Below, one piece after another: positions 3,504 through 20,811 of a DNA stretch of 55,046 bases; within the stretch, counting starts at the first letter, position 1, and each line of letters begins with the position of its first letter. The position numbers and the translations under genes are program-made. A model generated the notes under the pieces. It saw nothing but the letters and a program-made list of their open reading frames with translations. It did not search any database and was not told the origin of the DNA. Origin of the DNA: an uncultured Burkholderiales bacterium (GTDB lineage Bacteria; Pseudomonadota; Gammaproteobacteria; Burkholderiales; Burkholderiaceae_C); contig CAIWWN010000149.1 in NCBI GenBank assembly GCA_903916355.1, positions 1 to 55,046 of the forward strand, given 5' to 3'.

Positions 3504-3592
3504 GTGTTGGATAGGCAATCCGCGCCCGCATGCCTAAAGTTGCCCTTAGCCCGCAATGTTGCGTGGCATGTCACACACAGAGGGGACACACC

Positions 3593-4873
3593 ATGAAACC
3601 ACAACGCCCATCCTTGACCCGCCGTGCGCTCGGCCTGACCGGTATCGCTGCTGCCGCATGGTTCAGCACCACCGGCGCTTGGGCCCAAGCCAAACCCATC
3701 GTGATCGGTTTGCCGATTGCCCAAAGCGGTCCGGCCGGCGTGGCCGACCATGCCGATTACCTCAATGGGGCGAAACTCGCCGCCAAAGAAATCAATGCGG
3801 CCGGTGGCGTCAATGGCCGGCCTTTGGAACTCAAGGTGTTCGACATCGACATCATGACGCCCGAAGGCACGCAAGCGACATTCCGCAAAATGGTCGATGC
3901 CAAAGTGCAGGCGATTGCCTCGCCTTTTGTCTTGATCCCCACGCCGGCCATGGAAGCCGTGTCGCGCTACAAAGCGCCTTACATCCATGGCAACACCCAG
4001 CAAGCCTCGCTGGATTTGGTCAAAGCCAATCCTGCCAAGTACGGCCACATCTTCCAGATCGACCCGCCTGAGACTTTTTATGGTGCCGGTTTTCCCGCCT
4101 TTTTGGAGCAGTTGCAAGCCAGCGGCGGCTGGAAGCCGATCAACAACAAGGTGCACATCATTCGCGAGCAAATCGCCTACACCCAGACGATTTCCAAATC
4201 CACGGAAGAAGCCCTGAAGTCGAGCAAGTTCGAGCTGGCCAAAATCACCGACATCCAGTTCCCCGTGCAAGACTGGGGCCCCGTGTTGCAAGACATTCGC
4301 AAGACAGGCGCTGGGGTGGTCATGGTGAATCACTGGGTGGCTGCGGAGTTGGCCTCATTTGCCAAACAGTTTGCGGCCAACCCACTGCCGGGGGCGCTGG
4401 TGTATTTGCAATACGGCCCGTCACAGCCGGAATTTTTGAATCTGTCGGGTAAAGCGGCTGAGGGCTTTATTTGGGGCACGGTGTATGGCGCCTATGCCGA
4501 CAAACAGGGCAAAGCTTTCCGTGAGGCGTACCGCAAAGAGTACTTGGCCAAAGGCGGTGTGATGGGCTTGGTCTACACCGGTGGCGGTTACGACACCGTC
4601 AAGTTGCTGGCGCAAAACTGGAAGGGCGCTGACCCCGACAACTTTGAAGCCGTGAACGCTGGCTTGCGCAAACTCACCTACCGCGGTGTCAACGGCTTCT
4701 ACCGATTTGACAACCCTCAGCAAGCGCCCAAGCATTACCCGATGGAAGTCAAAGAGCTGGAGCAAGGTATTGCGCATCTGTTCTTTCAGGTGCAAAACGG
4801 CGAGCACCAGATCATCGCCCCAGGTGCGGTGAAACAGGCCAGCTTCAAGCCCGCGCCTTGGATGGGCAAGTAA
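3593..4873 (+). CDS. ABC transporter periplasmic substrate-binding protein (branched-chain amino acid/amide type)
   Basis: Signal peptide plus KPIVIGLPIAQSGPAGVADHADYLNGAKLAAKEINAAGGVNGRPLEL typical of LivK/UrtA-type SBPs. Confidence 0.9.
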   Translation: MKPQRPSLTRRALGLTGIAAAAWFSTTGAWAQAKPIVIGLPIAQSGPAGVADHADYLNGAKLAAKEINAAGGVNGRPLELKVFDIDIMTPEGTQATFRKMVDAKVQAIASPFVLIPTPAMEAVSRYKAPYIHGNTQQASLDLVKANPAKYGHIFQIDPPETFYGAGFPAFLEQLQASGGWKPINNKVHIIREQIAYTQTISKSTEEALKSSKFELAKITDIQFPVQDWGPVLQDIRKTGAGVVMVNHWVAAELASFAKQFAANPLPGALVYLQYGPSQPEFLNLSGKAAEGFIWGTVYGAYADKQGKAFREAYRKEYLAKGGVMGLVYTGGGYDTVKLLAQNWKGADPDNFEAVNAGLRKLTYRGVNGFYRFDNPQQAPKHYPMEVKELEQGIAHLFFQVQNGEHQIIAPGAVKQASFKPAPWMGK

Positions 4874-4964
4874 ACACCTCGGCCCCCTGCCCGGCACGGG
4901 GCCGAGGTGCAGTAATTTGCACCCACAGGGCAGAGTTTCTCTGCGCTTTTCTTCGGGACATGCC

Positions 4965-5684
4965 ATGATTTTTTCTTGTGACAACATCCACATGCACTTT
5001 GGCGCGCGCGCTGTCTTGCAGGGCATCACGCTGGGTGTGCAGCCGGGCGAGGTGCTGGGCGTGGTGGGCCCCAATGGGGCGGGCAAGACCACCTTGTTTG
5101 AAATCCTGTCGGGTCGCAATAGGCCCACGCAAGGCCGCGTGATGTTTGAGGGGCGCGACATCACGGCACTGCCACTGCACCAGCGTGCACGCCTGGGGCT
5201 GGCGCGGACCTACCAGTCACCGGTCGTGCCCGAGCAACTCAGCGTAGGCCAGGTGCTCAAAGCAGCGCGTCAAGCCTACGCACCTTACTTGACTGCGCAC
5301 CATGCGCAATGGGCCTGTGAACAGGTTGGCCTGACGGTGTCACTTGCACAAAGTGCGGGCTCACTGGAAACCCTGAATCGCCGTAAGCTCTTGCTCGCCT
5401 GCCTGCTGATGCGCCGACCCAAGGTGTTGTTGATGGACGAGCCCGCCGCCGGATTGCTGGGCGCTGAAGTGGACGAGATTGACAACATACTGCGCTACTT
5501 GGCGCAGCAGTTGGGCGTGGCCATCATGTTGGTTGAGCATCGGCTAGAGCTGCTGGCGGCGATTGCTGAACGCGTGGTGGTGCTGGATGGCGGCGAGTTG
5601 ATTGCCGAAGACAAGCCGCACCGGGTGTTCTTGCACCCGCGAGTGCGCGCTGCATATTTTGAAACCCATGCGGAGGCGGCATGA
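4965..5684 (+). CDS. ABC transporter ATP-binding protein, LivG-like
   Basis: Walker A GPNGAGKTT; DEPAAGLLGAEVDEI; overlaps next gene by ATGA. Confidence 0.92.
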   Translation: MIFSCDNIHMHFGARAVLQGITLGVQPGEVLGVVGPNGAGKTTLFEILSGRNRPTQGRVMFEGRDITALPLHQRARLGLARTYQSPVVPEQLSVGQVLKAARQAYAPYLTAHHAQWACEQVGLTVSLAQSAGSLETLNRRKLLLACLLMRRPKVLLMDEPAAGLLGAEVDEIDNILRYLAQQLGVAIMLVEHRLELLAAIAERVVVLDGGELIAEDKPHRVFLHPRVRAAYFETHAEAA

Positions 5685-6373
5685 ACTCCGCCCCCGTTGA
5701 AGTGTTGCAGGTGAGCCAGCTCTCGGCCGGTTATGGCCCGCTGACGGTGCTGCACGATTTGGACATGACGGTGTTCGCGGGTGAGCGCATCGGACTGGTG
5801 GGTCTGAACGGGCATGGCAAGTCCACGCTGTTTCGCGCCATCTCCGGCTTGACCGACTGGCAACGCGGCTCGATCAAATTGCGCGGCCAAGAAGTGGGCG
5901 GCATACGCACCCAAGGCCCGGGTCGGCACACGCACCGCATTGTGCGTTTGGGCTTGGCCCATATGCCGCAGGGGGACGCCATTTTTCCTGGGCTCACAGT
6001 GGCGCAGCATTTGGATTGCGGCGCCTACACCCGCCAAGCCTGGCGCGAGCGCGCGCAGCGGCGCGACGCTTTGCTCGACATCTTTCCGCCACTGAAACAG
6101 TTGCTGCAAGCCCCAGTTGGCACGCTGTCGGGCGGGGAGCGGCGCATGGTCTCGTTGGCGCGCGGCCTGATGGTGGATGCGGTGCTGTTTTTGGTGGACG
6201 AACCCTCACTGGGCCTGGCGCCCAAGATCAGCCGTGCGGTGATGGACGCGCTGATGCGCATTGATCTGCGCAACGGCGCCATGGTGATCGCGGAGCAAAA
6301 CATGTCGTTGCTGGAAGGCCGCTGCACCCGTATCTTGGGCATGCACGCCGGCAGTTTGAAGGGGAGCGCGTGA
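5681..6373 (+). CDS. ABC transporter ATP-binding protein, LivF-like
   Basis: Walker A GLNGHGKST; signature LSGGERRM; VDEPSLGLAPKI. Confidence 0.92.
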   Translation: MNSAPVEVLQVSQLSAGYGPLTVLHDLDMTVFAGERIGLVGLNGHGKSTLFRAISGLTDWQRGSIKLRGQEVGGIRTQGPGRHTHRIVRLGLAHMPQGDAIFPGLTVAQHLDCGAYTRQAWRERAQRRDALLDIFPPLKQLLQAPVGTLSGGERRMVSLARGLMVDAVLFLVDEPSLGLAPKISRAVMDALMRIDLRNGAMVIAEQNMSLLEGRCTRILGMHAGSLKGSA

Positions 6374-7260
6374 TGCCCGATATCGATCTGTCTTTTGTGC
6401 TGTTGTCGGCCCTCACCTTGGCCTCGATTTATGGCTTGCTGGCGTTGGGGGTGTCCATCATTTGGTCCAGCTTGGGTATGCTCAATATGGCCCACGGTCT
6501 GACCTTCACCGTGGCCGGTTATGGCGCCGCGCTGGCCGCCACCATGATCAGCGACAACGGCGCGGTGGTGCTGGGCGCAGGCATGGCGGCGGGCATGCTC
6601 AGTGGCTTGTTCATTTGTTCGGTGGCCTTCATTCCCTTGCACGACAAACCCAATTTTGTGGTGCGCAGTTTGATTGCCACTTTGGCCCTGAGCCTGCTGG
6701 GCAGCCAAGTGCTACTGTGGGCGTTTGGTCCCAATGCGCGCAGCCTGCCGCCGCTGTTTGGCAGCGAACCCGTGGTGCTGCTGGGCATGACTTTGCTGCC
6801 TGACAAACTTGGCGCGATCGGGGTGGCCGCTGCCTTGATGCTGGCCACGCTGTGGTGGATGAAGCACAGCCGCACGGGTTTGGAAATTCGCGCCATGATG
6901 CAAAACCCCGAAGGCGCCGCTTTGGTGGGCATTGGCCTGCGCAGCACCGCCATGGCGGTGATGGCGGTGACCGGTGCGCTGGCGGGCTTGGCGGCGGTGC
7001 TGCTGTCGCAAACCTATTTTGTCAGCCCCTTCTCGGGCACCACACCCTTGGTCAAAGGCTTGATTGTGGCGCTGTGCGGCGGCCTGGGCAGCATTCCGGG
7101 CGCGCTGCTGGCCGCTGCTTTGATCGGTACCTTGGAAGCCTTGACCGGTGCGCTGCTGGGTGGCCAGTATGTGCTGATGACGCAATTCATGTTTGTGATC
7201 GCGGTCTTGATCGTGCGGCCACGGGGCATTGCCGGCTTGCTGGACCACACCCGTGAATAA
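6373..7260 (+). CDS. Branched-chain amino acid/amide-type ABC permease, LivH-like
   Basis: Multiple TM helices; YGLLALGVSIIWSSLGMLNMAHG motif. Confidence 0.9.
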   Translation: MPDIDLSFVLLSALTLASIYGLLALGVSIIWSSLGMLNMAHGLTFTVAGYGAALAATMISDNGAVVLGAGMAAGMLSGLFICSVAFIPLHDKPNFVVRSLIATLALSLLGSQVLLWAFGPNARSLPPLFGSEPVVLLGMTLLPDKLGAIGVAAALMLATLWWMKHSRTGLEIRAMMQNPEGAALVGIGLRSTAMAVMAVTGALAGLAAVLLSQTYFVSPFSGTTPLVKGLIVALCGGLGSIPGALLAAALIGTLEALTGALLGGQYVLMTQFMFVIAVLIVRPRGIAGLLDHTRE

Positions 7261-7299: not shown

Positions 7300-8841
7300 A
7301 TGAACATCCCCAAATCCTCTCCGGTCATGTACCTGGTCGGGCGCCGTCGGTGGTGGCCCGTTCTGGGCGGTCACGGTGACAAGCTGTGGCACCGCGTGCG
7401 CTATCCGTTCACACGCCGCACGGTGTTGCATGTACAAGGGGTCTACAACCCCAAGACACTGGCGCGAGAGAAAAAAATCCTCAACAAGAAACCGATTTGG
7501 TGGGCGCTGGGCTTGGCCGCTTTGGCGGTGCTGCCGCCTTTGGCCAGCGTGGGCTTGGAGAGCAACAGTCTGTTGTCTGCTGCCGCCATTTTTGCGCTGT
7601 ATGCCGCGATCAATTTGGTGTGGATGCTGATCATCGGGACCGCTGGGATTTTTTCACTTGCCACCTTGGCGGTGGTGGGCTCGGCGGCCTACACCAGCGC
7701 CTGGTTGTCGGTCACGTACGGCTTGCCCTGGTGGGGCATGATCGGCGTGGGCGGGGTCACGGGCTTGCTGGCGGGCGTGATCATTGCCATTCCAGCCACG
7801 CGGCTTGAAGGTTTCTATTACGCTTTGCTGACCCTGGGTTTGGTAGAGCTGTGCCGCGTGTCGGTGGTGCAGTCCAAAGCCTTGGGCTCGGCCACGGGTG
7901 GGCTGTACGGCGCCGACAGCTATGTGCCCGACAATTTCAGCGAAATGGGCGAACTCCTGCTGGGTTACTACGCCTGCTTGGCGGTGATGCTGCTGGCGCT
8001 GGGCTTGTACCGCGCGGTCAACGGTCAGCGTCTGGGGCGTTTGCTGCGCGCTGCACCCGAAAAGCAAGAGGCCTTTGCCCAAGCGGTGGGCATTGATTTT
8101 CTGCGCGCCCGCATCGAGGTGTTCTTGATCTCGTCCACTGCGCTGGGTCTCATCGGCGGGTTTTACGCGACCCATTTCAAAGGCGCTTCGCCATCGCTGT
8201 TTGGCATGGACAACTTGCTGCTCTTGTTGGCCATGATCGTGATCGGTGGGCTGGGCACGGCCGAGGGTGCGGTGGTCGGCACTTTGCTGGTGGTGGGCAT
8301 TGACAAATTGTTGGTGGACCTGGGCCCGATGCGCTTGGTCTTCATTGGGCTGTTGATGCTGGCCACCGTGCTGTTTACCCGCAATGGTTTGTTTGGCATG
8401 AAGGCGCAATTTGAAGCCTGGCGAGACCGCATTCGCAGCCAAGCACGTGCCAGCCGTTCTGAACATGGAGGAGAGGTCATGCCTGAAGAAGCCGTCGACA
8501 TTCACGACAAAAACATCATTGCCCATCGCCGCTTTGACAAGCGTACACGCGAGGCACTCAAGCTGCTCATCACCCCCGAGGTGATCGAGGAGCACCGCGT
8601 GTGTCCCCGCGGCCAGCACAGCGACGCATTGATGCGTTTGCTCAATTACTTTCGCGTGGCATCCTTGGTCGACAAATACGCGCTGTTTGCGGAGGAGCCC
8701 TTCAAGCGCTACCGCGTGATTGCCTTGTCTGGCGTGCGCGGTGTGCCGCCACGCAGGGTGGACGATAAAGCTTACAGCGATCTGGACACGGCCTACCACG
8801 CGGTCTTTCTCAAGCGCTGCCAGGATTTGGTCGAATCCTGA
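7300..8841 (+). CDS. LivM-like ABC permease continuous in frame with a C-terminal N,N-dimethylformamidase small-subunit (DmfA1-like) domain
   Basis: 513-aa ORF; permease domain to about residue 375; C-terminal IIAHRRFDKRTREALKLLITPEVIEEHRVCPRGQHSDALMRLLNYFRVASLVDKYALFAEEPFKRYRV...YHAVFLKRCQDL resembles DMFase small subunits; an internal RBS (GGAGGAG) and ATG at 8479 precede that domain. Confidence 0.8.
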   Translation: MNIPKSSPVMYLVGRRRWWPVLGGHGDKLWHRVRYPFTRRTVLHVQGVYNPKTLAREKKILNKKPIWWALGLAALAVLPPLASVGLESNSLLSAAAIFALYAAINLVWMLIIGTAGIFSLATLAVVGSAAYTSAWLSVTYGLPWWGMIGVGGVTGLLAGVIIAIPATRLEGFYYALLTLGLVELCRVSVVQSKALGSATGGLYGADSYVPDNFSEMGELLLGYYACLAVMLLALGLYRAVNGQRLGRLLRAAPEKQEAFAQAVGIDFLRARIEVFLISSTALGLIGGFYATHFKGASPSLFGMDNLLLLLAMIVIGGLGTAEGAVVGTLLVVGIDKLLVDLGPMRLVFIGLLMLATVLFTRNGLFGMKAQFEAWRDRIRSQARASRSEHGGEVMPEEAVDIHDKNIIAHRRFDKRTREALKLLITPEVIEEHRVCPRGQHSDALMRLLNYFRVASLVDKYALFAEEPFKRYRVIALSGVRGVPPRRVDDKAYSDLDTAYHAVFLKRCQDLVES

Positions 8842-8871: not shown

Positions 8872-11205
8872 ATGGCGCAAATTCGCATTCACGGCTATAC
8901 CGACAACCTGTCTGTCAAAGCAGGTCACAGCGTCACCGCGCACATCAGTGCCGAAGGCGTGACCCAGGTGCAAGCGCAACTCGTGCGCTTGATTCATGGC
9001 GATGAAAACCCGCAAGGCCCCGGCTTTATGGAGCAAGACATAGAGGCCGATATCAACCGCGTCTGGCCCGTGCAGCGCCAGTATCTGCAGGCCGGCAATT
9101 TTTTGCGCGTGGAAGATACGCAAGGGCGTTTGAATGCACCCGGTGCAATCACGCTGCATGCCTTCATCTACCCCACCTTGCCATCTGAAGGGCGCCAAGT
9201 GATCTTGGGCAACTGGGACGTGGAGCGTCGCTGCGGTTATGCCCTGGGTCTGAACGGACAAGGTCAGCTGGAATTTTGGCTGGGTGACGGTCAGCAGGTC
9301 GACGCCGTGACGGCCGAGGTGCCGATGATGGCGCAAATTTGGTACTTCGTATCCGCCAGTTATGACCCGTCCAGTGGCGTGGCCACCGTACACCAAGAAG
9401 CGGTGCTCAATCGCTACAACTCGTTGCTGTCTAAGATCGTGCCCATCGACTTTCATTCGCATGTGCAAACCCGCTTGCGCGCGAGTGCCGGCGTGGGCAC
9501 AGGCTTTTTGATTGCGGGTGCGCATGACCGCAACCCTGCGCGGGGCAACTTTGTCGCGCAATGCTTTAACGGCAAGATCGACCGACCCGGCCTGCTGGGG
9601 GCGGTGGCCACGCCAGACATGCTGGCCAAGCTGCGCACCGGCCACCCCACACACCACAGCGCCACGCTGGCGTGGTGGGACACCAGTGTGGGCTATACCG
9701 AAAACGGCATTGGCGAGACCGTCCACGACAGCGGCCCTTACCAGTTGCATGCGCAAGGCGTCAACTGCCCGGTGCGCGGCCAAACCGGTTGGAACTGGAA
9801 CGGGCGCAACGACTGTTACCGCCTCTCGCACCATGAGTACGGCGGCATCGAGTTTCATGAAGACGCGATGACCGATTGCTGCTGGGCGCCCACCTTCAGC
9901 TTTCATGTGCCAGAAAGTTTGCGCAGCGGGGTGTATGCGATTCGCCTGCGTCCCACTGACGAAGATGATCACCCTGAAGCCGGTGCCATGGCCGAGGAAT
10001 ATTTGCCACTGTTTGTGCGCGCCGCCAAACCCAGCGCCCCGCTGGCCATGTTGATCCCGACCGCCAGTTACATGGCCTACGCCAACGCGCAGCTGACTTT
10101 TGAAATTCCGGTGGCCCAGGCCATCACGGCGTGTGTGCCGGTGTTCCAGCCTGAGGACATTGATTACTATAAAAACGGCTTGGAGTTCGGCTTGTCCACC
10201 TATGACCGTCACCGCAGCGGCCATGGCGTGTGCTATACCTCACGGCGACGCCCCATCATCAACATGCGGCCCAAGTGCCGCATGCCCGGCGTGGCCTGGC
10301 CTTGGCAGTTTCCAGCCGATTTGTCTATCATCGCGTGGCTCGAAAAAATGGGTTACGACTACGAAGTGTTGACTGACGACGACTTGCATCACGAAGGCGC
10401 TGCCGCCTTAAAGCCCTACAAAGCCGTGATCAACGGCACCCATGCCGAGTACTACTCAGAGCCGATGTTGGACGCCACCGAGGATTATCTGGCCGAGGGC
10501 GGGCGAATTCTGTACCTGTCGGGCAACGGCTATTACTGGGTGGTGGGCTACAAACCCGACATGCCCTGGATCATGGAGGTGCGCAAACTCGAAGCCGGCT
10601 CGCGCGCCTGGCAAGCGCGCCCGGGCGAGCATTACCTGGCCACCACCGGCGAGCGCAGCGGGCTGTGGCGGCACCGCAACCGAGCGCCGCAAAAACTCGT
10701 GGGCACCGGGTTTGCATCTGAAGGTATGGACGAGTCAGTGCCGTTTCGCCGCATGCCCGACAGCTATCACAAGAGCGTGGCCTGGATCTTTGAGGGCGTC
10801 ACCGAAGAGCTGTTTGGCGACTTTGGCCTGGGGGGCAACGGTGCGGCGGGCATCGAAATCGACCGCTACGACCTGACGCTGGGCACGCCACCGCACGCGC
10901 GCATTTTGGCCACCAGCGAGGGCTTTTCCGACAATTACCCCTTGGTGCAAGAAGAGATCATGTACAACCACCCGGGCATGGGCGGCACGCAAAACCCCGG
11001 GGTGCGTGCTGACATCGTCTACTTCACCACGCCTAACCATGGCGCCGTGTTCTCGCCCAGTTCGATTGCCTGGGGCCAGGCCCTGCCTTGCCGTGACTTT
11101 GACAACCCGGTCTCGACCATCATGAAAAATGTGGTGGATGCGTTTATCAAAGAGGGCGAGTTGCCTGGCATGGCCTACAGCGCTGAAGAAAAACACTGGC
11201 GCTGA
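8872..11205 (+). CDS. N,N-dimethylformamidase large subunit (DmfA2-like)
   Basis: 777 aa with LamG-like N-terminal region; PTASYMAYAN (Y400), STYDRHRSG (Y444) and GTHAEYYS (E526) occur with spacing similar to the 2-Tyr/1-Glu iron site described for DMFase. Confidence 0.85.
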   Translation: MAQIRIHGYTDNLSVKAGHSVTAHISAEGVTQVQAQLVRLIHGDENPQGPGFMEQDIEADINRVWPVQRQYLQAGNFLRVEDTQGRLNAPGAITLHAFIYPTLPSEGRQVILGNWDVERRCGYALGLNGQGQLEFWLGDGQQVDAVTAEVPMMAQIWYFVSASYDPSSGVATVHQEAVLNRYNSLLSKIVPIDFHSHVQTRLRASAGVGTGFLIAGAHDRNPARGNFVAQCFNGKIDRPGLLGAVATPDMLAKLRTGHPTHHSATLAWWDTSVGYTENGIGETVHDSGPYQLHAQGVNCPVRGQTGWNWNGRNDCYRLSHHEYGGIEFHEDAMTDCCWAPTFSFHVPESLRSGVYAIRLRPTDEDDHPEAGAMAEEYLPLFVRAAKPSAPLAMLIPTASYMAYANAQLTFEIPVAQAITACVPVFQPEDIDYYKNGLEFGLSTYDRHRSGHGVCYTSRRRPIINMRPKCRMPGVAWPWQFPADLSIIAWLEKMGYDYEVLTDDDLHHEGAAALKPYKAVINGTHAEYYSEPMLDATEDYLAEGGRILYLSGNGYYWVVGYKPDMPWIMEVRKLEAGSRAWQARPGEHYLATTGERSGLWRHRNRAPQKLVGTGFASEGMDESVPFRRMPDSYHKSVAWIFEGVTEELFGDFGLGGNGAAGIEIDRYDLTLGTPPHARILATSEGFSDNYPLVQEEIMYNHPGMGGTQNPGVRADIVYFTTPNHGAVFSPSSIAWGQALPCRDFDNPVSTIMKNVVDAFIKEGELPGMAYSAEEKHWR

Positions 11206-11305
11206 GCCCAGACCTTGAGTGCTGGCCATGCCCGGATCAACCCTGATGGACGCCGCGAAACAAAAGGAGTTCAATTCACTGACGACTCGCCCGAGTCGCC
11301 CTGCG

Positions 11306-12355
11306 ATGAACACCGAAACTTTTGGCAAAACACTGTTGGAGTTGTACCGCCTCGCGCGCATGGCGCCGATGCAGAATTTCCAACGCCTGGCGCTTGATGC
11401 CATCAGTGCGCGCTTTGACTTTGACTCTGCCTGGTGGGGCATGGCGTCACAGCCACCCGAGGGAGAGTTGGAAATTCACGCCTCATTGCCTTACCGCTTG
11501 CCCGCGTTCTACCCGGGCTTGTGGGACGAGATCAAAGAACAAGACACGATGGCCGATGCCGCCATGGCCGAGCCGGGCACTTGCGTGAATTTTGGTCGCA
11601 AACAACTGTATGCAACCCCCGGTCTGGCCTCGCTCATGGCGCGCTTTGGCATCACCGGTTGTTTGTGCACTGTCACTTTATTGCCCGAACTCAATCTCAT
11701 GGCCTTCTTGTCCTTGTACAGGATGGAGGGCAAGCCTAGCTTCACCGAACACGAGCGCCGCACCCTGCAGTTGCTCATGCCGCATATGACGGCGGCCTTG
11801 TCCGCCAATTGGATGCTGCATTTGGAGCGGGTGCGCTCCAACAGCGCCTCGGGGCGCGCTTCTTTGGGTGTGGTCGACCAGCGCGGTATGCTGTATGTGG
11901 CCGATCAGGCCCTCACCGCCGCTTTGCGTTTGGAGTGGCCGCAATGGCAGGGGCCGTTGCTGCCTGAGGCGTTGGTGCGGCATTTGCGCGCAGGTACTTC
12001 GTACCGCGGGCAGCGCTTGAGCGTGCGTCTGCACCCTGTGGGCAATTTGTGGTTGCTTGATCTGCGCTCCGTCAGCCATGTGGGCCGCCTGTCGCCACGC
12101 GAGGCAGAGATCGCGCAGCAGTTTTCCGCTGGCTCCAGCTACAAAGAAATCGCACGCGATTTGGGCATCGCACCAGCCACAACGCGCCATCATTTGCGCG
12201 AAATTTACCGCAAGCTGGAAGTCTCTGACAAGGCCGCACTCGCGCACAAACTCATGGACATGGGGGACGACGGCGACATCAACGTCGAAGGATTGAGCAT
12301 CTTTGAAGAATTGCCTGGCGCTCCCATGGGTTTTGGACGTTTACCGGTGGGGTGA
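11306..12355 (+). CDS. LuxR-family transcriptional regulator
   Basis: C-terminal HTH: LSPREAEIAQQFSAGSSYKEIARDLGIAPATTRHHLREIYRKLEVSDKAAL; start uncertain (ORF open from 11219). Confidence 0.88.
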   Translation: MNTETFGKTLLELYRLARMAPMQNFQRLALDAISARFDFDSAWWGMASQPPEGELEIHASLPYRLPAFYPGLWDEIKEQDTMADAAMAEPGTCVNFGRKQLYATPGLASLMARFGITGCLCTVTLLPELNLMAFLSLYRMEGKPSFTEHERRTLQLLMPHMTAALSANWMLHLERVRSNSASGRASLGVVDQRGMLYVADQALTAALRLEWPQWQGPLLPEALVRHLRAGTSYRGQRLSVRLHPVGNLWLLDLRSVSHVGRLSPREAEIAQQFSAGSSYKEIARDLGIAPATTRHHLREIYRKLEVSDKAALAHKLMDMGDDGDINVEGLSIFEELPGAPMGFGRLPVG

Positions 12356-13373: not shown

Positions 13374-13916
13374 TCATGGTGTCTGAGCAATGTGCAAGCC
13401 AAGTCCTTGTGCGCGCTGCACCAAAACGGCACGTGTGGCGGCCACATCCACCAAGGGGGTCCGGCGCGCCTGGCTCACTTCGCTTGCATCAAAGTCACGA
13501 TGTTGCGACGGAATGGAGGCGCTGGCTATAGAGGAAAGTACCCAGTTCGTGACCTGGGCTATTTGTTCATCGTTCAAACCCGAGCCCATCACGCCGGGCA
13601 CTTGAAGCAAAAACTCGCGCCCACCGGGCACACGCAAAAACTGCCCGAGCTGGCGCATATCGGGCACGCGCGCGCTGGCCGAGCCGCTGCCGTCCAGGCT
13701 GTGGCAACCGGCGCAGTGCAAGACATACAGGGCTCTGGTGCTGTGGGCGGGCGAAATGGACGGCGCGTTGGCGCGCTGCACCACCTGCCGCCCCAAGGTG
13801 GTGGCGGTGTTGCCGTGGACCTCATGGGCGTGGGTGGCCGGTCCCATGAAGGAGCCAACCACGGCGAATGCAAAGGCTGCACTCAGGAAGGCCGGCCGTC
13901 GGACACCTGTGCGCAT
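13374..13916 (-). CDS. c-type cytochrome, single CAGCH heme site
   Basis: YVLHCAGCHSLDGSG; exported; downstream of amine dehydrogenase genes. Confidence 0.85.
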   Translation of the reverse strand: MRTGVRRPAFLSAAFAFAVVGSFMGPATHAHEVHGNTATTLGRQVVQRANAPSISPAHSTRALYVLHCAGCHSLDGSGSASARVPDMRQLGQFLRVPGGREFLLQVPGVMGSGLNDEQIAQVTNWVLSSIASASIPSQHRDFDASEVSQARRTPLVDVAATRAVLVQRAQGLGLHIAQTP

Positions 13917-13920
13917 GAGC

Positions 13921-14361
13921 TTACTTGAGCAGTTGCATACGCAGGGCCCGCGACTGCGGCGGACTGCCTGCACTGCTGCGCGCCGTGGCGATTTCGTCGG
14001 CGCTGTAGGCGGGGCCTTGTCGCTTTTGCAGGCCTTGCAAATGGCTGGCAATGACGGCCAGTTGTTCATCGTTCAGTTGACCGGCAAAAGCGGGCATGCT
14101 GCCGACAAAACGCTGACCGTTGACCACGATCAGACCCGACAGGCCATGGGTGATGACTTGCGCCAGGTAGTTGCGGTCTGCGCCTAGGCGTTGCCAGTGC
14201 TCGCCTTGAAGGGACGGCGCCAGGCCCACCGTGCCACTGCCATCGGCCTGGTGGCAGGCGGCGCAGTGTTGCGCAAACAGCGCAACGCCATCGGCAGCTT
14301 GCGTCAGCGGCGCGCACAGGCTGAGCACGCTGGTCAGCAGCCAAGGAAAAGCAAGCCGCAT
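13921..14361 (-). CDS. c-type cytochrome, class I, single CAACH heme site
   Basis: Signal peptide; FAQHCAACHQADGSGTVGLAPSL; MPAF candidate Met ligand. Confidence 0.88.
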   Translation of the reverse strand: MRLAFPWLLTSVLSLCAPLTQAADGVALFAQHCAACHQADGSGTVGLAPSLQGEHWQRLGADRNYLAQVITHGLSGLIVVNGQRFVGSMPAFAGQLNDEQLAVIASHLQGLQKRQGPAYSADEIATARSSAGSPPQSRALRMQLLK

Positions 14362-14900
14362 CAGGCCACGCCTACAATGATGGAGGTGGTGCAGTGGAAC
14401 ATGGAGCTGGTGTTGGCCATGCACCAGTTGATGTCGTTGTGCACACCCAGGCGGTAGCCGGGCCGTTCGCGCTCGTTGTTGTTGCACAGACATTCGCCGC
14501 AGGAGCCTTTGCCGCAGCAGTCGTTGTAAGACACCAGGTAGTGACGGCCGTCTTGCGGGTTCAGGCAGGTGCCGACCCACGACACCTTGGAGGCCTCGGT
14601 GCCCGGCGGGCATTGCGTGAGCGAGCCACCGCAGCAGGTGCACAAAAAGCCGTCAAAGGCGCAGTAACGCCAATACTCGCATTGCGTGGGGTCCAGCGTT
14701 TTGTCGAGTTTCTTGCCGGGCTCGGCCGCTTGTGCGCCCATGAACTGGCCGCTGCGATCAAAGGGCAGCATGGGCAAGATCGCGCCGCCCACCAGCGCCG
14801 TGCCCAAGCGCGTGACGAAACTGCGGCGTCCGTGTTGGCTGGCCACTGCGCGCACGCGCCGCTCGGTCAATCGGTCCAAGATGTTCAATAACCATGTCAT
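14361..14900 (-). CDS. mauA: TTQ amine dehydrogenase (methylamine/aromatic amine) light chain
   Basis: Tat-like signal (GRRSFVTRLG); Cys-rich CEYWRYCAFDGFLCTCCGG...; TTQ Trp contexts SWVGTC and INWCMA. Confidence 0.92.
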   Translation of the reverse strand: MTWLLNILDRLTERRVRAVASQHGRRSFVTRLGTALVGGAILPMLPFDRSGQFMGAQAAEPGKKLDKTLDPTQCEYWRYCAFDGFLCTCCGGSLTQCPPGTEASKVSWVGTCLNPQDGRHYLVSYNDCCGKGSCGECLCNNNERERPGYRLGVHNDINWCMANTSSMFHCTTSIIVGVA

Positions 14901-14925
14901 GGTGAATCTCCGGTAAGGCCTGACT

Positions 14926-15513
14926 TCAGGCGGTCTGGCCTTCAAGGTATTTTTGAATCGTCGGCGTGTCCATGTCATGCGCGTTGAGCAAGCTGTCAAG
15001 CTGCTCACGCGAGTTGACCAAGCCTTTGGCGCGCACGGTGCCTTCGCGGTCCATCAACACCGCGTAGGGCAAGCGCGAGACGCGGTAGCTCATGCCCAGT
15101 TCTGTGGACAGCAGGTAGGGCATGGCTTGCAGCCCTTGCGCACGCATGAACTGCAGATGATCGCCTTCGCCGTCGCTGGCCAGGACCACGCGCAAGCTGC
15201 TGGCTTCGTCGCGCGCCAGGTGCTTCAAGATAGGGATCAGTTTTTTGCACACCGGGCAGGTGGGCGCCAAAAAGAACAGCAGCGTGGGTTGTGCTTGGGG
15301 GCCGCCGATCACCACCTGCTCAGACTGCAAACCGATCAGGTCAAAAATGGGCGAGGGCTGGCCGACGGCTGGGCCCGCATCGGTCACCAGTGCACCCATG
15401 GGCGCGACCCGCTCAAACAGCACACCGACTTGGCGCGACAGCGCCCACACCAAAAGGCCCAGCGCGAGCACGGCGAGCCACAACAGAACTACGGAAATGG
15501 TCATGGCATCCAT
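14926..15513 (-). CDS. mauD: MauD-like thioredoxin-fold amine dehydrogenase accessory protein
   Basis: TM anchor plus APTCPVCKKLIPIL; between mauE-like and mauA-like genes. Confidence 0.9.
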   Translation of the reverse strand: MDAMTISVVLLWLAVLALGLLVWALSRQVGVLFERVAPMGALVTDAGPAVGQPSPIFDLIGLQSEQVVIGGPQAQPTLLFFLAPTCPVCKKLIPILKHLARDEASSLRVVLASDGEGDHLQFMRAQGLQAMPYLLSTELGMSYRVSRLPYAVLMDREGTVRAKGLVNSREQLDSLLNAHDMDTPTIQKYLEGQTA

Positions 15514-15526
15514 GGGCGTTCTTTCT

Positions 15527-16057
15527 TTAAATGGGGAAGGGGCGGCGGGTTTGCCGCAGCACTTGGTGAAACGCGGCCCAGAGCAAGCTGCCCAGCAGCA
15601 CCGCGCCCAGGGTCACGCCGTAATCGGCGAGGTGCATCTCGCGTGGCACCAGGCTGGCGCTGGCGGGCAGGCACAGCAGCGTCAAGACGAGGTTGCGCAG
15701 CACCAGGGCCCAAGACAAGGGCAAAGGTTCGCCGCCGCAACCGCAGTCGAGTCGACGGCCGGCTTTGCGGTGCCAAGCCATGGTGCTGGCATACAGCAGT
15801 AACAAGGCCGTGGCCCCAGCGGCGCCAACTTCGCGCCAAGGGGAAAGCAGCAGCAAGCCAAAGCCGATTTCGGCCAAGGGCATAGCCCCGCTGAGCGGGG
15901 TGATCAAGGCGTCGGGTACGCGGTAGGCGCCCAGGTGTTGCACAAACAAGCTGCGGTCCAGCAGCTTCACGAGGCCGGCATGCAGCAGCAAGGTCGCCAG
16001 CCAAGCGGCTGGAATCCAAACGGCCAAAGGGTCGAGCGTGAGCGGTGTCGCGTTCAT
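15527..16057 (-). CDS. mauE: MauE-like membrane accessory protein
   Basis: Polytopic, RRLDCGCGG motif, position between heavy chain and mauD. Confidence 0.85.
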   Translation of the reverse strand: MNATPLTLDPLAVWIPAAWLATLLLHAGLVKLLDRSLFVQHLGAYRVPDALITPLSGAMPLAEIGFGLLLLSPWREVGAAGATALLLLYASTMAWHRKAGRRLDCGCGGEPLPLSWALVLRNLVLTLLCLPASASLVPREMHLADYGVTLGAVLLGSLLWAAFHQVLRQTRRPFPI

Positions 16058-16067
16058 GGTCTGGTCC

Positions 16068-17291
16068 TCAGTCGTGCGACTCGATGTGCAGCGCAGCCTC
16101 ACCTGCCTTGGTCACCGAGCTCAGGTGCGTGAGCTTGCCGTTGCCTGGCCAGCGCCACACGTTCATGGCGCCGGTCATGCCGTCCAGCGCTTGCAGGCGT
16201 TCGCCGTTGTGCGAAAAGGTGAGCGAGGCTGTGCCTTTGCCCGGATGTCGGGCCACGCGTTGGCCGGTCTGCAGGTCAAACACCCACAGCTGGGCGGCGG
16301 GGCTCTTGTGCGAGCCTTCAGCGCCTTTGGGGTGCATGCCGGCCACCAGCCAGTGGGCGCTGGGGTCGACGGCAAAGTTTTGGTAACCACCGGGCCGCCA
16401 TCCGCCCTTGCGGTCTGCGGCGGTGACCAGCGACTGTTGGCGCACCACGCGTGCCACCGGGCCGCCCAGATCGAGTTCGGTCAACAGACCCAGGAAGGAG
16501 ACAAACCAGTAACGGTCGCCCACTTGTTCAGCGTGGTGAAACCAAGCGTCGGTGTCGGCGTCAAAAAGCTTGGCGCTGACCTGGCGATCGGCGACTTGGC
16601 CTTGCTCGTTCAGCGTGATGGTGGCGACTTTGCCGTCGCCGCACAGCATAGAGAACCGGTGGCCGCTGGCCGCAGGCAAGGTGCCCCAGCAACCTGGGGT
16701 TTGAATCTCGTTGACGACCTGGCGCGCGGTCAAGTCGACCACGGTGATCGAGGTGGCCGGCGTGGCGTTCTGCACCAGCACATAGCGCCCACTGCCGGTG
16801 GCGCGCACCAGACCGCGGTAGTTCAGCGCCTGCGCGCGGCGCGGTGGCAAGATCACTTCGTATTTGGGCGCCAGATTCACGGTGTCGTGCACTTCCAGCA
16901 AGTCGGTGCGCTCGCCCCGCGTGCCGCGGCTGTAGTAGGTGGTGGCCACATACAGTTCGTCGGCCTTGGCGCTGAGGGTGAAGTTACCGGCAAAGCCGGT
17001 CGAGACCATGCCCAAAAAGCGACCCTGAGTGGCATCAAACACGCGAATGCGGCCATCGATAATGTGACTGATGGCCACATCGGCCACATAGACCCGCGAG
17101 GTCGGGGCTTGGGCCAGACTGGTCACCGTCAGAGTTTCGGCTGGCAGTTCTTGCGCAGTGATTTTTGGCGATGGGGTTGAAGGCGGCGCGGCGTGCGCGC
17201 TGGCTGCCAACAGCAGGCCGGCCGCAAGACGACTCAGGGTCTGCGCTCCTGCATGAGGCCTTGTGCCGACTGACCTGAAAAAGGTATTCAT
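16068..17291 (-). CDS. mauB: TTQ amine dehydrogenase heavy (beta-propeller) chain
   Basis: RVYVADVAISHIIDGRIRVFDATQGRFLGMVSTGFAGNFTLSAKADELYVATTYYSRGTRGERTDLLEVHD typical of amine dehydrogenase heavy chains. Confidence 0.92.
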   Translation of the reverse strand: MNTFFRSVGTRPHAGAQTLSRLAAGLLLAASAHAAPPSTPSPKITAQELPAETLTVTSLAQAPTSRVYVADVAISHIIDGRIRVFDATQGRFLGMVSTGFAGNFTLSAKADELYVATTYYSRGTRGERTDLLEVHDTVNLAPKYEVILPPRRAQALNYRGLVRATGSGRYVLVQNATPATSITVVDLTARQVVNEIQTPGCWGTLPAASGHRFSMLCGDGKVATITLNEQGQVADRQVSAKLFDADTDAWFHHAEQVGDRYWFVSFLGLLTELDLGGPVARVVRQQSLVTAADRKGGWRPGGYQNFAVDPSAHWLVAGMHPKGAEGSHKSPAAQLWVFDLQTGQRVARHPGKGTASLTFSHNGERLQALDGMTGAMNVWRWPGNGKLTHLSSVTKAGEAALHIESHD

Positions 17292-17402
17292 CTGTGGTTC
17301 CTCCTGAACCCCGGGGTAAGGGATCAGTCTAAAGGGGAAGCCCCCCAAGCCACTATCACGAATCGGCAAAGAAGCCGGCCCGTCGCGCCAGCCGGTTAGA
17401 CC

Positions 17403-18038
17403 TCACCAGCGCAGGAATCGGGCACCCAACACCGCCCCGACCACCGCGCTCAAGCCCATGCCGCCCGAGTACCACAGGGCGAAGAAGGTAAAGCTGTTTT
17501 CGGTGCAGTGCAGCGAGTAGAACATCGCGGCCAGGGCGCCGGCCAGCAAGCCCGATGCTGCGCCAGTGAGCCCTGGCCGGGTTGGGGCCATGTCGCGCAG
17601 CGTCCACATCAATGCAGCCAATACAGGCAGGGCGATGAATGCGATGTTCAAAGTGCACACTTGCCAGCTCGTCCCCAAGGCCAAGGCGCTGCGCTGCGGC
17701 ACCGGGGCTTGTAGCAGCTGACTCATGCCTTGCCCGCCCATGGCCAGCAGTGCCAAACCAATGGCCCAAGGCGCGTTGCCCATCTGCCTACCCGGGTGGA
17801 CCATGCGGTACACCAAGGCTGCACTGAAAACGAGTAGCGCAAACAGCCACACCATCTTCAAGCTGAAGACCGAAGTGCTTGCGAACTCACTCAGCTTCGG
17901 ATTCAAACCCAGGTAAAGCACCATCACGACGCAAACCGCCAGTGCGACCGCCAAACGCCCACCGACTTGCCGGGGAGCCGGTCCTTGCGCGGGGCCGGCG
18001 TCGTGCGCTAACAAAGCAATCAATTCATCGGTGTTCAT
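17403..18038 (-). CDS. NrsF-like (DUF1109) membrane anti-sigma factor
   Basis: Six-TM-type sequence; start codon overlaps sigma factor stop; conserved partner of SigF-type ECFs. Confidence 0.85.
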   Translation of the reverse strand: MNTDELIALLAHDAGPAQGPAPRQVGGRLAVALAVCVVMVLYLGLNPKLSEFASTSVFSLKMVWLFALLVFSAALVYRMVHPGRQMGNAPWAIGLALLAMGGQGMSQLLQAPVPQRSALALGTSWQVCTLNIAFIALPVLAALMWTLRDMAPTRPGLTGAASGLLAGALAAMFYSLHCTENSFTFFALWYSGGMGLSAVVGAVLGARFLRW

Positions 18039-18595
18039 GGTTTCGCTCTCCATTGGGTGGCCAAGGCCTTTAAGCCTCGGTGCACATTCACTTTCACGGC
18101 CGCTTCGCTTTGCCCAGTCAAGGCCGCGGTCTCGGTGATCGACAGGCCTTGCAATTTGGTGTGTTCAATCGCCAGGCGCTGCTTGTCGGGCAACAGCGTC
18201 AGCATATGGCCCAGGTCGCGCTGCGAGTCGGCCGCTTCGGTGTCGCCGCTGATGGACAAAATTTCTGACCAGTCGTCGATGTCATCGTGCAAAGCCTCAC
18301 GCCGGCCGTGCGCGCGCAAATGGTCAATCCATTTGTAGCGTGCGATCGCGTACATCCACGCCGTGAAGGCTTGCTCACTTTGGTAGGTGTGGCGTTTTTG
18401 ATGAATGGCCAACAGAGTTTCTTGCACAAGGTCCTCGACATCACTGGGTTGCGACTGCATGCGTCGATTCAGAAAGCGCCGCAGGTAGCCACTGATGACT
18501 TTCAAAGCGCGCGCATAGCAGGCGGCGTCACCCTCCTGGGCTTGCAGCCATAGCGCATGCAATTCGAGTTCAATGGTTTGCAGGCTTTCGCTCAT
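18035..18595 (-). CDS. ECF RNA polymerase sigma factor (SigF-like)
   Basis: Sigma2 DVEDLVQETLLAIHQKRHTYQ...FTAWMYAIARYKWIDHLR; sigma4 LPDKQRLAIEHTKLQGLSITETAALTGQSEAAVKVNVHRGLKAL. Confidence 0.93.
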   Translation of the reverse strand: MSESLQTIELELHALWLQAQEGDAACYARALKVISGYLRRFLNRRMQSQPSDVEDLVQETLLAIHQKRHTYQSEQAFTAWMYAIARYKWIDHLRAHGRREALHDDIDDWSEILSISGDTEAADSQRDLGHMLTLLPDKQRLAIEHTKLQGLSITETAALTGQSEAAVKVNVHRGLKALATQWRAKP

Positions 18596-18603
18596 CAAGT
18601 CAG

Positions 18604-18687
18604 TTCGTTGTGGGTCAAGAAAAAGTTACAGATTAAAAAGAAGTAAATAAATTAAATTTTTCGTAACTTTTCGGTGTGATGCGACGG
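18604..18687. promoter_or_regulatory. Candidate ECF promoter elements in the divergent intergenic region
   Basis: Minus strand GTAAC (18629-18625)-N17-CGAA (18607-18604); plus strand GTAACTTTT at 18663 upstream of the RiPP precursor gene. Confidence 0.4.
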
Positions 18688-18775
18688 ATTACACCATGAC
18701 AGCGCTTGACAAGTGCCAAGACGGCATCAGTCAAAGCGGTCACTTTCAACCTTCCATCCTTCAGGAGATTTTTCA

Positions 18776-19128
18776 TGAACAAGCAACAACTTCTCGCCAT
18801 CGCTTTGGGCTCTGCATATGCCGTCGTGGCCAGCCTGCCCGCCCATGCTGCGGGCAATCCCTTCAGCGCCAAAACATTGGATGCTGGTTACCAAGTCGCC
18901 CAAGCCGACATGAAACCCGATATGAAGGGTGAGATGAAAGGCGATATGAAAGCCGACATGAAGGCCAAAGAGGCCAGCTGTGGTGCCGACAAGAAAATGG
19001 ACAAGGGTATGGACAAGAAGAAAGACGGCAGCTGCGGTGGTGACAAAAAGGCCGATATGAAGATGGACAGCAAAGCCAAGGACGGCAAGTGCGGTGAAGC
19101 CAAGTGCGGCGCTGACAAGAAAAAATAA
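18776..19128 (+). CDS. Bufferin/HvfA-type RiPP metallophore precursor (Cys-Gly motifs, DMK repeats)
   Basis: Signal peptide MNKQQLLAIALGSAYAVVASLPAHAA; then ADMKPDMKGEMKGDMKADMKAKEASCG...DGSCGG...DGKCGEAKCGADKKK; followed by MNIO, DUF2063 and DoxX genes. Confidence 0.85.
18907..18966 (+). repeat. 12-bp in-frame tandem repeat (five units) encoding (D/E)-M-K-x
   Basis: gacatgaaaccc/gatatgaagggt/gagatgaaaggc/gatatgaaagcc/gacatgaaggcc. Confidence 0.9.
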
Positions 19129-19165
19129 GCCCTGCCAACGGCCCATCGATTTTCAAAGCTGAACC

Positions 19166-20077
19166 ATGTCCATGCACTCCATTGCTCAACCCGCCGCCGG
19201 CTTGGGTTTTCGCCGCGAGTTGATCTCGGCGCTGCAGCAAGGTGTGCCGGACGCGGTCCAGTTTTTCGAAGTCGCTCCCGAGAACTGGGCCGGCATGGGC
19301 GGCCGCGCGGGTCGCGACTTTCGCGCCTTCACCGAACGCTTTCCTTTTGTCTGCCACGGCTTGTCTTTGTCCCTGGGTGGCCCAGGGCCGTTGGACGAGA
19401 TCTTGCTGCGCCGTACCAAGGGCTTTATGCGCGAACACGGCATCAGCCTTTTTACCGAACACTTATCTTGGTGCGCGGACGACAGCCACCTGTTCGAGTT
19501 GCTCCCTATTCCCATGACCGAAGAAGCGGTGCGCTACACGGCCCAGCGTATTGCAAGGGCGCAAGATATTTTGGGCATGCGCATCGGCGTGGAAAACGCC
19601 TCCACCTACATCGCCCCGCCGGGTGCCGAAATGACCGAGCCCGAATTCGTGCGCGCCGTGGTGGAGCAGGCCGATTGCCTGCTGCACTTGGACGTGAACA
19701 ATATCTATGTCAACAGCCAGAATTTTGGCTTTGACCCCCACGCCTACTTAGAGCAACTGCCACTGGAGCGCACCTGCTATGTGCATGTGGCGGGGCACTA
19801 CGTCGAAGACGATGGTTTGCACATCGACACCCACGGCAGCGACGTGATCGACCCGGTGTGGCAACTGCTGCAAGCCGCTTACCAGCGCATCGGCCACGCG
19901 GTGCCAACGTGCTTGGAGCGCGATTTCAATATCCCCGACCTGCCCACCTTGACGCAAGAGGTGGCGCACATTGCACGCCTGCAACAAGCGGCCTGGAGTC
20001 GCGTTTCAGAGCCGCATTTATCGCCCGCAGCGCACCCAGCTTTGCCTCATGTAGCCTCTCCTTGGCAGGTGGCTTGA
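19166..20077 (+). CDS. MNIO (DUF692) RiPP maturase, HvfB/BufB-like
   Basis: LGFRRELISAL...VQFFEVAPENWAGMGGRAGRDFRAFTERFPFVCHGLSLSLGG; HLDVNNIYVNSQNFGFDP; overlaps next gene at TGATG. Confidence 0.93.
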   Translation: MSMHSIAQPAAGLGFRRELISALQQGVPDAVQFFEVAPENWAGMGGRAGRDFRAFTERFPFVCHGLSLSLGGPGPLDEILLRRTKGFMREHGISLFTEHLSWCADDSHLFELLPIPMTEEAVRYTAQRIARAQDILGMRIGVENASTYIAPPGAEMTEPEFVRAVVEQADCLLHLDVNNIYVNSQNFGFDPHAYLEQLPLERTCYVHVAGHYVEDDGLHIDTHGSDVIDPVWQLLQAAYQRIGHAVPTCLERDFNIPDLPTLTQEVAHIARLQQAAWSRVSEPHLSPAAHPALPHVASPWQVA

Positions 20078-20811
20078 TGCTCGCGTTTCAAGAGTTTCAG
20101 CATGCCCTCGCGCAGCACCTGCGCGACCCGCACCACACACGCCGTCCTGCAGGGGTGCCACCACGCCGCATGGCGGTTTACAACGAGCTGGTATTCAACA
20201 ACCTGTGCGGGTTTTTGGACAGTTGCTTTCCGGTCAGCCGCCAATTGTTGGGCGAGGCGCGTTGGCGCCGGCTGTGCCGCACCTTTGGCCGTGACTGGCC
20301 GTTGCACACGCCTTGGTTCCGCGAGATTCCGCGTGAGTTTGTGCGCTACCTCAGCGAAGGCCGTATAGCCCAAATCCTGCCGCGCAGCTTGGCCGAGCTG
20401 GCCCATTACGAATGGGCCGAGCTATCGGTGGACGTGATGGAGGTCACGCTCCCTGCACACGACTGCCAAGGCGACATGATGCAAGCGCGCGTGCTGCTGA
20501 ACCCGGCGCGGGTGGACGTGGCCAGCGCCTGGCCGGTGCACCGAATCGGCCCGACCTGGCAGCCCCGAAAAACAGAGCCCACTTTTTTGGTGGTGTTTCG
20601 CGATGCAGAGCTCGCAGTGCAATTTACCGAAATCAACGCCGTCACCGCCCATGTGTTGGCGCTCTTGGACAGCGGCCTGACCGGCCAGCAAGCCTTTGCG
20701 CAACTGGCCCAAGAGATGGCCCACCCCGACCCCGAAGCCCTGCAAGGCTTTGGCCAGCAACTTCTCAACAGCCTGCGTGAGCAAGGCGTCATTTTGGGCA
20801 CCCTGACATGA
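20077..20811 (+). CDS. DUF2063-type RiPP maturation partner, HvfC/BufC-like
   Basis: [18 protein letters not shown]...[39 protein letters not shown] track start 19858 overlaps the MNIO gene. Confidence 0.92.

Follow-up and report, generated by a model that had tools for sequence, protein, structure and literature searches.

A LivM-type ABC permease gene fused in frame to a dimethylformamidase-type small subunit and its conserved internal start site

In a 55,046-nt contig of an uncultured Burkholderiales bacterium (hereafter the window), an open reading frame raises the question of how an enzyme subunit came to sit on an importer and in what form it is made. The first-pass annotation had described the 513-aa ORF at 7300-8841 on the forward strand as a LivM-type permease that runs without a stop into a segment resembling the small subunit of N,N-dimethylformamidase (DMFase). 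It left two options, namely that the amidase is tethered to its transporter or that one ORF yields two products by internal initiation. We examined the encoded domains, the related operons, and the codons at the joint between the two parts.

The frame was found to be open throughout, with no internal stop between the permease and the C-terminal segment. Residues 92-356 matched the Pfam family BPD_transp_2 (E 5e-24; 85.3 bits against a cut-off of 26.8). The C-terminal 120 aa, encoded at 8479-8841, had a sole match in the PDB by phmmer, the DMFase small subunit 6lvb_B (E 1.8e-10), and this chain was also retrieved by a profile search (E 5.1e-16). The comparison of predicted structures that had been proposed as a check gave the same answer. 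When the 120 aa were modelled with AlphaFold (pLDDT 81), Foldseek gave significant matches only to chain B of 6lvb, 6lvv, and 6lvd, with TM-scores of 0.75-0.81. In a model of the whole fusion, based on 8 close homologues, the small domain matched these same chains; the permease part of that model was unreliable, and the small domain alone was used. Judged from these searches and models, ORF 7300-8841 encodes an ABC permease of the LivM type that continues in frame into a small subunit of the DMFase type.

The basic N-terminus that had been remarked on is a real feature of the gene, an extension of about 64 aa (7300-7491) with 15 K/R against 2 D/E. It is specific to fused permeases: within a plasmid collection it was present in 26 of 26 fused-permease records, the two remaining matches being noise (E 7-8), and the LivM proteins of two unfused operons lacked it. 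The membrane part is flanked by basic stretches on both sides, which by the positive-inside rule predicts that both termini are cytosolic. The small-subunit domain would then lie in the same compartment as the large subunit, which has no evident signal sequence.

The fusion gene is part of a forward-strand operon. Upstream are genes for a livJ-like substrate-binding protein (3530-4873; Peripla_BP_6, E 2.2e-37), which holds the same place in related operons and may be translated from a downstream ATG, a livG/urtD-like ABC ATPase (4917-5684; ABC_tran, E 1.3e-23), a livF/urtE-like ABC ATPase (5681-6373; ABC_tran, E 4.9e-28), and a first permease, livH/urtB-like (6370-7260; BPD_transp_2, E 4.1e-32). 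The best NCBIfam models for the two ATPases were UrtD and UrtE, both under cut-off, and the fused permease reached only 66.7 bits against the LivM equivalog cut-off of 366. As had been supposed, the gene directly after the fusion (8872-11205) encodes a DMFase-type large subunit, aligning with 6lvb_A over residues 2-775 (E 2.8e-192; PF20254) and retaining an intact iron site (Y403, Y444, H524, E526, and N552). A LuxR-type regulator gene follows (11219-12355; GerE, E 6e-13), as it does after the operon in several Burkholderiales. No second small or large subunit was found in the window's genome, which is estimated to be 99.7% complete.

We then compared permease orthologs for a stop preceding the small subunit. 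The in-frame fusion without a stop recurred at 58 other loci in Burkholderiales, including Limnohabitans, Ideonella, and Paucibacter, and in Rhizobiales, including Rhizobium, Agrobacterium, Aminobacter, and Ensifer. The window comes from a draft genome of 294 contigs, in which an assembly or sequencing error could have removed a stop codon, but 26 public plasmid records contain the same fusion, as do isolate genomes including those of Limnohabitans sp. T6-5 and L. planktonicus. The relatives refute such an error, and we regard an artefact as practically negligible. The occurrence is patchy: 5 further genomes from the same genus as the window do not have the fusion. In public annotation the fused genes appear only as branched-chain amino acid permeases. 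We also noted a free-standing small subunit in the archaeon Halalkalicoccus jeotgali (L025:6279-6821) annotated as an 'inner-membrane translocator', a name probably copied from a fused homologue.

Wherever the contig was long enough, flanking DNA showed the same order of livJ, livG, livF, livH, the fusion, and the large-subunit gene, with about 1.3 kb between the last two at locus L113. The joint motif GGExxPEEA was present in every extracted fusion. Based on the subunit genes that follow, the loci were grouped into three classes, with L013 and L140 left out. In class A (46 loci), the fusion is followed by the large-subunit gene, and no separate small-subunit gene was found within the fetched stretch. 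In class B (5 loci: L021, L131, L132, L148, and L149), a free small-subunit gene lies directly between the fusion and the large-subunit gene. In class C (6 loci: L133, L134, L135, L138, L139, and L150), the fusion and the large-subunit gene are followed by a free small-subunit gene and a second large-subunit gene. Three genomes of one Burkholderiales genus carried two different fusion operons each (L115/L123, L116/L122, and L117/L119) and additionally a more distant free small subunit.

The window sequence was seen to contain a Shine-Dalgarno (SD) sequence and start codon at the border of the small-subunit domain, as the first-pass annotation had pointed out. GGAGGAG occupies 8467-8473 and ATG 8479-8481, with 7 nt between GGAGG and ATG, and the long product reads GGEVM at this site (8467-8481). 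Both junction glycines are encoded by GGA, which makes up about 1% of the glycine codons in the fusion and large-subunit genes; the lysine position of the joint is a histidine in the window. Across class A, the first glycine of the joint was GGA in 29 of 46 genes, whereas 27 other conserved glycine columns of the same genes averaged 6.5% GGA, and the preceding lysine was AAA in 33 of 37. When codon bias was scored relative to the usage of the individual gene, the two columns took the first two ranks among 238 conserved columns. They kept these ranks among 224 columns when one gene was retained per 80% identity cluster (22 genes; GGA in 13 of 22, p 2.6e-11). Relatedness alone does not account for this, since all columns share one tree. 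Together the two codons spell AAAGGAGG, and GGAGG or AGGAG began at the first glycine in 29 of the 46 class A loci, the highest count of any column. A start codon stood at one of the two codons following GGE in all 46 (ATG in 38, GTG in 6, and TTG in 2), while the amino acids encoded there differed (ML, VM, FM, VV, IV, and PL).

The loci of classes B and C, all 11 of which have a separate small-subunit gene, showed a different pattern. The first glycine was GGC in 11 of 11, the lysine was AAG in 9 of 11, GGAGG or AGGAG at the first glycine occurred in none, and a start-type codon was missing in 5. Local mRNA structure at the site was weaker than in synonymous nulls in class A (mean z +1.2; above 0 in 40 of 46) and stronger in classes B and C (mean z -1.1). 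The free small-subunit genes of class C begin with M-L-P, at the same position as the internal M-L-P of the fused start. SD-antiSD duplex energies, which were noisy against synonymous nulls in GC-rich sequence and were replaced by the per-column codon tests, fell below 0.05 in 16 of 46 class A loci and in 0 of 11 loci of classes B and C, and were not significant for the window alone. An independent-pairs test was likewise not significant alone, free copies having been gained only twice, with SD loss in both cases. There are exceptions within the family: one lineage (L016/L017) has lost the SD (GGC GGC or GGT GGC) and kept the ATG with no free copy in the operon, and five rhizobial loci (L019, L029, L114, L125, and L143) have only GGAGA, very near the ATG. 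Taken at the level of codons, the internal SD and start are conserved beyond what the protein sequence demands where no free copy exists, and the internal start probably yields a free small subunit as a second product of the gene.

Two other accounts of the joint leave internal initiation out. One holds that there is no small subunit other than the permease-linked domain, the SD-like sequence being a relic or a pause site that gives the membrane part time to fold first. The invariance of the joint as protein would fit this, as would the L016/L017 lineage, which lacks the SD and has gained no free copy. Pausing, however, leaves unexplained both the start codon kept in 46 of 46 class A loci despite varying residues and the decay of SD and start where a free gene exists, and we consider a tether alone unlikely. 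The other is that a free subunit is released by proteolytic cleavage at the linker. The invariant GGExxPEEA would suit a cleavage site, but cleavage would not select AAA and GGA codons or start codons, which makes this explanation very improbable.

The converse possibility is that the fusion is a mere by-product of a lost stop codon and that the working enzyme takes its small subunit from internal initiation alone. Selection acts on the internal start, and large subunits of this family normally pair with a free small subunit (PMC7686228), both of which agree with that idea. Against it, the fused small domain remained intact at each of the 11 loci with an additional free copy, and its dN/dS in the pairs tested there was 0.03-0.07, indicating purifying selection on the tethered domain even beside a free copy. 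The joint and the N-terminal extension are moreover conserved across two proteobacterial orders. An untethered enzyme as the only product is thus quite improbable. The large subunit of the studied DMFase has no activity without its small subunit (PMC7686228), so with its small subunit attached to the permease, active enzyme would be positioned at the exit of the transporter.

The comparative evidence thus supports both options of the initial question together: a tethered small subunit and an internally initiated free one are probably made from one gene. As a whole, we put the probability of this reading, a permease-tethered alpha subunit plus a free alpha subunit with enzyme both docked and soluble, at about 0.78. 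In this reading, a Liv/urea-type ABC importer would have as its second permease subunit a protein that ends, on the cytosolic side, in the alpha subunit of a DMFase-type iron amidohydrolase. Once made from the next gene, the large (beta) subunit would bind this tethered alpha where the transporter opens into the cytosol, and ribosomes starting at the internal site (8467-8481) would also make a 120-aa alpha that is free. An amide taken up by the importer would be hydrolysed by docked and soluble enzyme to a carboxylic acid and an amine.

In two-large operons, a difference between the two beta subunits was observed. The iron-site residues were intact in 58 aligned large subunits, and single large subunits all had an intact site. 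In all seven operons with two large subunits (L133, L134, L135, L138, L139, L150, and L020), exactly one copy had lost iron-site residues, through Y399F/L with H519R, Y440C, or E521A in DMFase numbering. By this residue criterion, the two-large operons encode one catalytic and one pseudoenzyme subunit. We rejected the idea that the dead copy always adjoins the fused alpha, as it comes first in L133, L134, L135, and L150 and second in L138, L139, and L020. An alpha2beta2 enzyme needs two alphas and the importer should have one M subunit, which would imply one transporter per dimer. A tentative extension, which we hold to be somewhat less probable than its opposite, is an asymmetric amidase in which the permease contributes one alpha as its tail and the second alpha is a free one from internal initiation or a duplicate gene. 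The dimer would sit on the importer and take up substrate directly, and in two-large operons a catalytic beta would be paired with a dead beta serving in scaffolding or docking.

Genes next to the operon give some indication of the substrate. In the window, a cluster resembling aromatic amine dehydrogenase, a tryptophan tryptophylquinone (TTQ) enzyme, adjoins the operon on the reverse strand (13374-17369), with a light chain (14361-15008), a heavy chain (16068-17369), MauD, MauE, and cytochromes c. Methylamine dehydrogenase was considered for this enzyme and rejected, as the PDB matches favour aromatic amine dehydrogenase. TTQ amine dehydrogenase genes also adjoin the operon at L010, L109, L014, L122/L123, L137, and L142, and a primary-amine oxidase adjoins the L125 fusion operon and the DMFase genes of Rhodococcus and Halalkalicoccus. 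These neighbours suggest a pathway of amide import, hydrolysis, and amine oxidation, in which the amine is perhaps aromatic. TTQ dehydrogenases are periplasmic, so the amine released by the putative cytosolic hydrolysis would have to get back out. Separately, the window at 17403-20811 contains an NrsF-type anti-sigma factor (PF06532) on the reverse strand beside an ORF resembling an ECF sigma factor. The forward strand of the same region has a gene for a small Lys/Cys-rich protein that looks secreted, along with two ORFs that, by eye only, resemble the DUF692/DUF2063 pair of bufferin-type metal-stress operons.

Two unfused relatives point to how the fusion may have formed. In L156 and L157, livM and the small-subunit gene are almost contiguous, the second beginning 4 nt past the livM stop in one case and overlapping the first by about 11 nt in the other; this is likely the kind of arrangement that gave rise to the fusion. 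An in-frame loss of the livM stop would retain the old ribosome-binding site inside the fused gene, where it would be read as Gly-Gly-Glu. Identity between these unfused LivM proteins and the fused ones is only about 28%, and these loci therefore illustrate the arrangement without implying ancestry.

If both forms are made, this would be an apparently undescribed coupling of import and metabolism, in which a transporter bears a subunit indispensable to the enzyme acting on the imported substrate, and the ratio of tethered to free subunit is set by one internal start codon. The natural variants, with the SD kept or lost alongside a gene duplicate, make dual coding and substrate channeling directly testable. 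Annotation as a branched-chain amino acid permease has hidden the fusion from view. We found no published link between DMFase and an ABC transporter in the open-access literature, a search that may have missed an earlier description of the fusion.

The closest known system is the DMFase of Paracoccus (DmfA1/DmfA2; PDB 6lvb; PMC7686228). Both of its subunits are homologous to those of the window, its iron ligands Y399, Y440, and E521 and catalytic H519 are shared (Y403, Y444, E526, and H524 in the window), and a LuxR-type regulator gene is adjacent in both cases. The Paracoccus small subunit, however, has a gene of its own and no transporter fused to it or encoded alongside, whereas that of the window forms the C-terminal end of an ABC permease. 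The N-acetyl-(R)-beta-phenylalanine acylase (PDB 8huy) is also a homologue of the window large subunit (E 2.9e-111), but is more distant than DMFase, and the window operon has a DMFase-type small subunit. With LivM and UrtC permeases, the window permease shares BPD_transp_2 and the complete partner set of livJ, livG, livF, and livH; unlike them, it falls far under both NCBIfam cut-offs, begins with a basic extension, and ends in an enzyme subunit. Release of a C-terminal part by internal initiation in frame is known from two-polypeptide endolysins (PMC9430671), from Cas11 inside a large-subunit gene (PMC11899642), and from SctQ of type III secretion (PMC8553256), where one ORF gives a full-length protein and a free C-terminal part able to share one complex. 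In those systems both forms serve the same machine, whereas the short form predicted here would serve as one subunit of a metabolic enzyme mounted on a membrane transporter.
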